Shown piece by piece: positions 50,402 to 60,038 of a stretch of 64,000 nt of DNA; positions within the stretch are counted from its first letter, which is position 1; every line of letters begins with the position of its first letter. A model generated the notes under the pieces. The model was not told the origin of the DNA, did no database searches, and saw nothing but the letters and a program-made list of their open reading frames with translations. Source of the stretch: Prochlorococcus sp. AG-436-C14 (GTDB lineage Bacteria > Cyanobacteriota > Cyanobacteriia > PCC-6307 > Cyanobiaceae). The DNA is taken from assembly GCA_003209755.1 (NCBI GenBank), contig QCPD01000008.1:1-64000 (forward strand). Direction: 5' to 3'. The position numbers and the translations under genes are program-made.

Positions 50402-50494
50402 TACTTTTCAGTTATTAAAAAAGGAGAAAGAAGCTCTTTAAACACTAATCGATAAATTCCAAAAGATCTGTCAGAATGTATATGTCTATTTTCT

Positions 50495-50729
50495 AATGGA
50501 CTAGGTGATTCACACCAGTATCTCGGACAGCGGTTCGATTCCGCTCAGCTCCACATATGGGGCTGCAATGGCTTCGACGGGGTATCAGGCGAGTGACTGA
50601 AGCCTGCTCGGTCAGAGCAAAACCATAACTGCTAACAACATCGTTAGTTTCTCCCGTCAAACAGCCCCTGTTGCTGCTTGATCTTTTAGGAGATGGGGTT
50701 AGTTCAGCCTTATTACCCAATTGATCCAT
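50495..50729 (+). ncRNA. ssrA: Two-piece, circularly permuted tmRNA
   Basis: The tRNA-like 3' part lies upstream: T-arm GCGGTTCGATTCCGC and acceptor CAGCTCC then ACA (ending about 50555). It is directly followed, after a few nt, by the 5' part starting GGGGCTG (50559). These acceptor strands pair as 7 bp including one G-U. The tag reading frame GCT (50631) to TGA (50679-50681) encodes ANNIVSFSRQTAPVAA. This is the permuted alpha-cyanobacterial ssrA, processed into acceptor and coding RNAs. It rescues stalled ribosomes. The 5' limit is approximate. Confidence 0.92.
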
Positions 50730-50753
50730 GGAGCCTGGAAGGGCTCCCTTTTT
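50730..50753 (+). terminator. Rho-independent terminator of ssrA
   Basis: GGAGCC (50730-50735) and GGCTCC (50742-50747) form a 6-bp GC-rich stem with loop TGGAAG, followed by CTTTTT. It lies at the expected 3' end of the tmRNA coding piece. Confidence 0.8.
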
Positions 50754-57298: not shown

Positions 57299-57964
57299 TT
57301 ACCAAGGTAAAATTGTTCCATTTGCATGCCAGAAAGTTCCACTATTCTCAAGTGTAAGTTCATCAATTCTTTGAATCAGTCCTCTAACTGATTCTTTAGG
57401 TTGAATACCATTGGAAGCAAATCCTGTCATACGAGTACTGACTAATCCTGGATGTAAAATTGCTACAGAAATACCATTAGGCTTTAAATCAACAGATAAA
57501 GATTTACCAGCCATACATAAGGCAACTTTTGACATCCTATATCCATAGGAACCACCGGAACTATTATCTTCTATCGAACCCATACGACTAGTTATTAGAG
57601 CTATTTTTGCAGATTTACTGAGGTGACTCAGCATGGTTTGTACACAACACAGAGGGCTGAGGGCATTCACCTCAAATTGATGAAGAATACTTTGCGGGTC
57701 TAAATTAGAAAGCGAGTTAAATTCTGCAATTCCAGCATTTTGAATTAAAACATCGACTGTAGTATCTTGTAAATTCTCTCTAAGCTTAATAACTGAGTCT
57801 CCTGAGGTGATATCAACATTCGTCTCAACTCTTACTGACAAGGAATTCAATTCTTGAGAAGCAGATCGACAAGTAGCAATAACATTTTCTCCTCTATTTT
57901 TCAATTGACGGACAAATTCTAAACCTATGCCTCTATTGGCACCTGTAATTAAATAAGTAGACAA
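57299..57964 (-). CDS. Short-chain dehydrogenase/reductase
   Basis: The 221-aa SDR has the NAD(P)-binding TGANRGIG at residues 7-14, the NAG of QNAGIAEF, and catalytic Y and K in YGYRMSKVAL with a serine in ITSRMGS. It resembles CsgA/carbonyl reductase-like SDRs that reduce carbonyl groups. The substrate is unknown. Confidence 0.88.
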   Translation of the reverse strand: MSTYLITGANRGIGLEFVRQLKNRGENVIATCRSASQELNSLSVRVETNVDITSGDSVIKLRENLQDTTVDVLIQNAGIAEFNSLSNLDPQSILHQFEVNALSPLCCVQTMLSHLSKSAKIALITSRMGSIEDNSSGGSYGYRMSKVALCMAGKSLSVDLKPNGISVAILHPGLVSTRMTGFASNGIQPKESVRGLIQRIDELTLENSGTFWHANGTILPW

Positions 57965-59288: not shown

Positions 59289-59447
59289 TTAGGCGGCTTT
59301 AGTTCCTTTTCTGTCTGCAAGGATTGCTTCAACAAAGTCTGCGGTAGCCTTTCTTGATGAAATATTACTTGTCTTCCAATGATGAATTAAAGTTTTCAAC
59401 TCAATTATCCGTTGTTCTGCAACTTCAATTTTTTCTTTATTAGACAT
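59289..59447 (-). CDS. 52-aa helical hypothetical protein
   Basis: Minus-strand reading from ATG 59447 to TAA 59289 gives 52 aa: an acidic helix (NKEKIEVAEQRIIELKTLIHHW) followed by a second helix (RKATADFVEAILADRKGTKAA). No membrane segment and no known domain. It is the type of small soluble protein common in Prochlorococcus variable regions. Confidence 0.6.
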   Translation of the reverse strand: MSNKEKIEVAEQRIIELKTLIHHWKTSNISSRKATADFVEAILADRKGTKAA

Positions 59448-59573
59448 CAAAATACGTGAAAACTTCTATCTTTTCAGCCTAACCTTTTAAAAATATATAT
59501 CAATAGAACATGAGAAAATAATAAATTTGGATAATCTTTTTACAAAGATAGGTTTGGTAACCTAGTTAAGCAA

Positions 59574-59601
59574 TAAAAAAGCCAGCTACTATGTAGCTGG
59601 C
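59574..59601 (-). terminator. Strong Rho-independent terminator (minus strand)
   Basis: GCCAGCTAC (59581-59589) and GTAGCTGGC (59593-59601) form a 9-bp perfect hairpin with a 3-nt loop. Read on the minus strand it is followed by a run of T (59574-59580). It lies 24 nt beyond the stop of the 33-codon gene. Confidence 0.85.
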
Positions 59602-59625
59602 TTAATGATTAATAGATCAAGGTAC

Positions 59626-59727
59626 CTATATAAACCTATTAATAATAAAACCCTTCAAGGCAGGAGTAACAGAAGCAAAAAGTTTTTTCATTTCCACTGA
59701 CTCTTGACCGATTGGTTGATGCGACAA
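59626..59727 (-). CDS. 33-aa peptide gene with full-length Shine-Dalgarno
   Basis: A TTG start at 59727 is preceded by AAGGAGGTGATCC (59729-59741), complementary to 13 nt of the 16S rRNA 3' end, with 7 nt between GGAGG and the start. The 33-aa peptide begins MSHQPIGQESVEMKK and ends with a hydrophobic/basic FASVTPALKGFIINRFI. It is closely followed by a strong terminator. The arrangement marks a self-contained and probably highly translated micro-gene; its role is unknown. Confidence 0.7.
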   Translation of the reverse strand: MSHQPIGQESVEMKKLFASVTPALKGFIINRFI

Positions 59728-59741
59728 TGGATCACCTCCTT

Positions 59742-60038
59742 AGATAAACATATTTAGACGATAGCCAAAAAATAATCTTTGTCGGTAAATTCGGTAACAA
59801 TTTTCTAAAAAATAACGATTTTATAATTATTATGAAACGTGATCATTTTTGAAAAATAAAAATTCTAGACAATTAATTGGAAAGCACAAGACTTAGCAAA
59901 TTAAATTTTAAAATTCCCCTTACATCCGCCCTCATCCATTTTTTTCCGGCAAAAAATTAAATAAAAAGAATCAAAATTTATATCTAAATCACGTTAAAAA
60001 GAATTTTCTGCTAAAACAATATTTCTATCACTACTTAC
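59742..60038. other. 297-nt intergenic region between divergent small genes
   Basis: No gene is seen. It must hold promoters for the 33-aa minus-strand gene and the 61-aa plus-strand gene. On the minus strand a tandem TTACCGA-N2-TTACCGA lies near 59786-59803, about 45-60 nt before the Shine-Dalgarno, and may be an operator. Confidence 0.4.

Follow-up and report, generated by a model that had tools for sequence, protein, structure and literature searches.

Organization of the locus

The minus strand of the window (the whole stretch of DNA analysed here, 64,000 nucleotides) carries a micro-gene made up of a predicted promoter element, an extended Shine-Dalgarno (SD) sequence, a short open reading frame (ORF) that opens with TTG, two hairpins and an intrinsic terminator (Table 1). 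The predicted transcription start leaves a 5' untranslated region of 22 nt, and terminator-like hairpins are present in the homologues too. Because the flanking genes differ between lineages, and the micro-gene has its own terminator and -10 element, it is, judged from its sequence, a stand-alone unit and not the leader of a downstream gene.

In a preliminary description of this DNA, a TTG start 7 nt past GGAGG on the minus strand and a frame of 33 codons were proposed, and both were borne out at the positions listed in Table 1. The hairpin with a T-run that was described as a terminator is likewise present, with a stem of 11 bp instead of the 9 bp given earlier. The match to the 3' end of the 16S rRNA was found to be 13 nt long as claimed, but the 13-mer named at the time, AAGGAGGTGATCC (59741-59729), was one base off, and the true match is AGGAGGTGATCCA. 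The shift follows from the 16S gene of the same genome (contig 15), which ends in ...GGCTGGATCACCTCCTAACAGGG / ...GGATCACCTCCTAACAGGG, and not in ...CCTCCTT.

Table 1. Features of the micro-gene and their positions in the window.
Feature	Position	Strand	Remarks
Predicted -10 promoter element TATCGT (TANNNT)	59758..59763	-	Alignment of 34 homologues shows no change at T, A or the last T
Predicted transcription start, G of GTTTA	59749	-	8 nt 3' of the -10 element; GTTT at least 90% conserved; inferred
Extended Shine-Dalgarno sequence AGGAGGTGATCCA	59728..59740	-	13 nt complementary to the 16S tail of the same genome
Nucleotide-frozen block, -12 to +14 (SD, UUG, codons 2-5)	59714..59739	-	Control genes vary there
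33-codon ORF	59626..59727	-	TTG start 59727-59725, TAG stop 59628-59626; peptide MSHQPIGQESVEMKKLFASVTPALKGFIINRFI
Hairpin P1 within the ORF	59661..59706	-	Arms 59706-59698 and 59669-59661; moderate support
C-terminal nonapeptide KGFIINRFI, amino-acid-conserved module	59629..59655	-	pN/pS 0.01-0.09
Hairpin P2 spanning the stop codon	59608..59643	-	Arms 59643-59634 and 59617-59608; 95% of cells paired
Intrinsic terminator, 11-bp stem and T-rich tail	59572..59603	-	Stem 59603-59579, loop 3, then TTTTAT

Distribution in Prochlorococcus

By DNA search of the genus, the element was recovered from 30 of 41 Prochlorococcus genomes at 76-90% identity, and from 15 of the 17 that are near-complete; two near-complete genomes (G022 and G030) gave no strong match in this search. 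In a sequence-model search of 400 genomes of the family, about 120 matched at E <= 4e-10, as a rule with one copy per genome, these and the other copies counted below being related sequences and not independent events. The same search found no homologue in the larger Synechococcus-like genomes sampled. The element occurs in high-light (HL), LLI and several other low-light (LL) lineages, and a scan of named genomes for the GFIINRFI codon pattern returned Prochlorococcus almost exclusively among the matches listed. We take genomes G002, G187, G050 and G117 to be strains NATL2A, MED4, SS120 and MIT9211, respectively.

The micro-gene has no match in Pfam, NCBIfam, Rfam or phage records, and the peptide string is absent from the open-access papers searched. 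Within the 1.72-Mb assembly, the 12-mer GGAGGTGATCCA occurs just twice, once in the micro-gene and once antisense to 16S. Since the 12-mer is this rare and the same element recurs in so many genomes of the genus, the 13-nt match is, on these counts, more than chance.

Coding evidence and the C-terminal nonapeptide

Full-length forms of the peptide comprise 32, 33, 35, 39 or 40 aa, the last being the length of the HL form, and the changes in length are of whole codons. Both alternative frames are interrupted by stops in every sequence. The comparison of synonymous with nonsynonymous sites that was proposed as a check yielded a clear signal of selection at the C-terminus: over the last nine codons, pN/pS is 0.01 in HL (40-aa) forms, 0.08 in LLI and 0.09 in other LL forms, and in the middle of the peptide it is nearly neutral (0.72-0.95). 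The nonapeptide motif ends in two fixed sense codons, TTT (164/164 copies) and ATA (163/164), although its remaining Phe and Ile codons vary freely at synonymous sites; ATA makes up only 30% of the Ile codons in neighbouring genes. The freezing of TTT ATA could stem either from decoding during termination or from an AU-rich RNA signal.

In other Prochlorococcus lineages, small ORFs of a second type were identified, which are 26 aa long, start with ATG and follow the pattern MLxxLF..SLLKxKGFIINRFI (e.g., MLARLFDQVSINSLLKSKGFIINRFI). They have the C-terminus alone in common with the micro-gene, encode it through different synonymous codons, and are without an extended SD (L246:864, L263:478, L279:1612 and L162 of G081). 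Selection on the amino acids of KGFIINRFI requires translation. Given this coding selection, together with second-type ORFs that encode the same C-terminus with synonymous differences, pure coincidence is ruled out, and a purely non-coding RNA is unlikely.

The homologues show that the micro-gene is a real gene. A homologous peptide elsewhere, the lack of which had been set beforehand as a refuting observation, was found, with KGFIINRFI under strong purifying selection. The fallback of a coincidental match, reserved for the case that nothing was conserved, is ruled out by the same homologues. We infer with good support that the peptide is translated, a reading offered by the preliminary description. 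A single-sequence AlphaFold model of the peptide predicts two helices (pLDDT 82, pTM 0.33) and provides weak evidence on its fold.

Initiation region and extended Shine-Dalgarno sequence

The stretch from -12 to +14 is nearly invariant, synonymous sites included, and the 30S initiation complex covers about the same stretch. Mean entropy over positions -12 to -1 is 0.01 bits, compared with 0.81 at the start of an SDR gene nearby, measured in the same genomes; for the third positions of codons 2-5, the corresponding values are 0.06 and 0.84. The start codon is TTG in all 167 unique copies, and AUG never substitutes for UUG, so that conservation of the TTG and of the frame, also named earlier as a decisive point, was found on both counts. 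UUG is a weak start codon and a very long SD helix can delay initiation; together they may make for slow initiation and not for the very high translation suggested in the preliminary description.

Predicted pairing of the SD with the 16S tail amounts to -24.8 kcal/mol in the window and -21.9 kcal/mol in the HL form. The strongest pairing among the 52 window ORFs of at least 100 aa is -13.5 kcal/mol (median -5.8), and that among 451 ORFs of related loci is -18.8 kcal/mol, the best of several candidate starts having been taken for each control ORF. With at least 12 contiguous pairs to its own 16S tail (13 nt in the window) and an energy that is an outlier relative to the ORFs compared, the SD of the micro-gene classes as extended. 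A 16S fragment or pseudogene was rejected as its source because the similarity ends after 13 nt. Furthermore, all 83 first-type copies recovered through the C-terminus alone retain the 12-mer, in which A-to-G and C-to-T are the only changes seen, and two more variants in the LLI set, GGGGGTGATCCA and GGAGGTGATCTA, are of the same kind. Each of these changes would preserve pairing with 16S through G-U, a suggestive pattern that comprises about four independent changes.

RNA structure and separable modules

Hairpin P1 has 80% of its cells paired. For P2, the paired fraction given in Table 1 refers to the low-light forms, in which one pair shows an A-U/G-C exchange in 15 of 34 rows, maybe as one or a few events. 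A fold that would hide the SD and the start codon (GGAG:CUCC and CCAUUG:CAAUGG) is 99% paired, but it is uninformative for covariation because it is almost invariant. Single-sequence folding z-scores of the RNA body are unremarkable.

In SS120-like short forms (L105-L108 and L164), the SD block and the hairpin are retained and the conserved C-terminus is lost, and P1, now followed by a T-run or a pyrimidine-rich run, resembles a terminator. In addition, genome G066 holds a short form together with a separate ORF of the C-terminal type 32 kb away. On the basis of these two arrangements, the 5' and C-terminal modules are read as separable, the 5' module being able to exist where the conserved peptide is missing. 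The short forms occur in GTDB genera that also hold full forms, which suggests either that the C-terminus was lost repeatedly or that the split state is ancestral.

Proposed mode of action and alternative explanations

The reading that we consider fairly probable is that of a stand-alone, translated Prochlorococcus micro-gene whose working part is the nonapeptide KGFIINRFI. Transcription from its own promoter would yield about 176 nt of RNA, up to the intrinsic terminator. The 12-13-bp SD/anti-SD helix would then capture the 30S subunit, with initiation in the cell presumably at the UUG, and the product would be a peptide of 33 aa, or of 40 aa in high-light strains. KGFIINRFI, which abuts the stop codon, would be the functional end, and the middle of the peptide would serve as a spacer that also forms an RNA hairpin. 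As for the mode of action, the leading candidate, held tentatively and at somewhat below an even chance, is that the released small protein docks on a partner via its C-terminal helix; the next, possible but rather unlikely, is that at the stop codon the peptide acts on the ribosome that has just made it. A view confined to the peptide leaves the SS120-like forms unexplained, since these have the SD block and hairpin with no conserved C-terminus.

Among the alternatives, it is unlikely, though worth serious weight, that the micro-gene is a nascent-chain device, in which KGFIINRFI and the UUU-AUA-stop stall or slow termination and the mini-mRNA holds ribosomes in place or sets the stability of its own RNA. 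Conservation confined to the last nine residues, with the upstream length free to range over 26-40 aa, would fit such a device, as would the fixed last codons amid variable Phe and Ile codons nearby; the fixed TTTATATA could, however, be an AU-rich RNA signal instead, and no conserved downstream cistron lies in cis, where a terminator is followed by changing flanks. Distinctly unlikely is the view that the RNA itself is the agent and the peptide secondary, the RNA pairing with the 16S 3' tail to hold or titrate 30S subunits, or to sense a ribosome subset or an initiation factor. Selection on the amino acids of KGFIINRFI, with its requirement for translation, argues that this cannot be the whole story; titration would demand an RNA abundance comparable with that of ribosomes, and the second-type genes manage without the SD. 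The RNA would nevertheless account for a 12-13-bp helix preserved through G-U-compatible changes, a block frozen even at synonymous sites, the lack of any switch from UUG to AUG and the persistence of that block in SS120-like forms, and extended SDs of up to 13 bp do regulate rpsU in Bacteroidota via ribosomes without bS21 (PMC9976891). A function in holding 30S may also coexist with a released or ribosome-acting peptide. An improbable combination of these elements is a ribosome trap acting in trans: the extended SD and invariant UUG would lock 30S subunits or a special ribosome subset, KGFIINRFI with UUU-AUA-stop would hold the ribosome at termination, and RNA and nascent peptide together would regulate or sense the state of translation in cells whose protein regulators are very few.

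Very improbable, in turn, is identity with Yfr6 or another catalogued Yfr sRNA of Prochlorococcus. Yfr6 likewise has a 33-aa ORF (PMC1242208), but identity was rejected because leader length, riboswitch motif and genome position all differ: Yfr6 measures 244 nt, with its ORF starting at nt 97 behind a Downstream-peptide motif, and lies at c627729-627972 in MED4 (PMC1242208), whereas the element lies at 661996 in the genome taken as MED4 and has the short predicted leader described above. Searches for a riboswitch motif gave no Rfam match at the gathering threshold in the window, nor at E<=5 around the element. The element is absent from the table of Yfr8-Yfr21, and Yfr103 was rejected on its length (290-328 nt) and copy number (paralogues). 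The LLI sRNAs Yfr106-108 have been validated in NATL2A (PMC7368042), and the element is possibly one of them, in which case the transcript would already be known, though not necessarily the peptide. Finally, a chance match, that is, a random SD-like 13-mer beside a spurious short frame, is given a negligible probability: short ORFs are plentiful, but this one is conserved across Prochlorococcus with selection at the codon level.

Comparison with known systems and significance

For the SD, the nearest mechanistic parallel by analogy appears to be the rpsU mRNA of Bacteroidota, where pairing of up to 13 bp between the leader and 16S lets ribosomes without bS21 select the mRNA and so autoregulates bS21 (PMC9976891). 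Both rpsU and the micro-gene combine long pairing to the 16S tail with the status of a single gene that stands out in its genome. They differ in that initiation in cyanobacteria is reported to be SD-led (PMC6847405), and in that the micro-gene encodes a peptide of 33-40 aa whose start is always UUG. Short RNAs with dual function, such as SgrS/SgrT and RNAIII/delta-haemolysin (PMC2518516), similarly join a conserved peptide to conserved non-coding features; for the micro-gene, in contrast, 16S is the sole pairing partner considered. The Yfr6/Downstream-peptide micro-genes of picocyanobacteria, which belong to a glutamine riboswitch class, are also autonomous short transcripts with a tiny conserved ORF, whereas the micro-gene has no riboswitch, a predicted short leader, an exceptionally long SD and a different locus.

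In arrest and leader peptides of the TnaC and SecM type, the conserved residues are confined to the C-terminus, just ahead of the stop or stall site. The micro-gene resembles them in this C-terminal-only conservation; unlike them, it has no downstream gene regulated in cis, its terminator (59603-59579) being followed by non-conserved genes. The lambda bar minigenes consist of AUG-AUA-stop, and thus also place AUA directly before the stop of a very short ORF, but the micro-gene has 33-40 codons and a conserved peptide and is not a two-codon minigene. In a comparison with type I toxin-antitoxin systems, the peptide is mixed-polar, with two helices predicted.

Prochlorococcus, a photosynthetic organism of very high abundance, makes do with a minimal genome and few protein regulators. 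A micro-gene conserved in most of its lineages deserves a place in the annotation, from which its small size and TTG start have kept it. In addition, a 12-13-nt SD and a UUG that remain unchanged across deep divergence constitute a natural experiment on why maximal anti-SD pairing should be combined with a weak start, and the nonapeptide with its frozen last codons offers a precise and testable handle.

Genomic neighbourhood

In 103 loci the flank compared includes an SDR-family gene, which lies upstream of the element in HL genomes but downstream of it in the window; the other neighbours differ between LLI and HL. In most lineages this gene (57299-57964 of the window, minus strand) is found no more than about 2 kb away from the element, in varying order and on either side. 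In the genome taken as MED4, the element has the SDR gene on one side and, on the other, a convergent gene that we read as a glutamine amidotransferase. A cis-attenuator of a downstream gene was rejected because the flanks are not conserved, and a phage origin because no phage record matches.

Several scattered matches were also set aside. Where the FIINRFI pattern occurs in viral contigs, it falls in unrelated short frames that lack the SD, and its matches elsewhere in cyanobacteria (G507, G516, G446 and G645) are short frames taken as chance. A gammaproteobacterial match (L178) lies antisense within another ORF and is likewise taken as chance, as is a tail-like match in HL genomes, which falls inside a gene read as coxB.

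Just past the terminator, on the same strand, lies a frame of 53 codons (59289-59450, minus strand) that starts at TTG and has an ATG a few codons later; sequence adjoining this frame is shared by some LLI loci. Further away in the window, a cyanobacterial tmRNA is located at 50468-50746, where the permuted tmRNA model matches too, and ARAGORN assigns it the tag ANNIVSFSRQTAPVAA.
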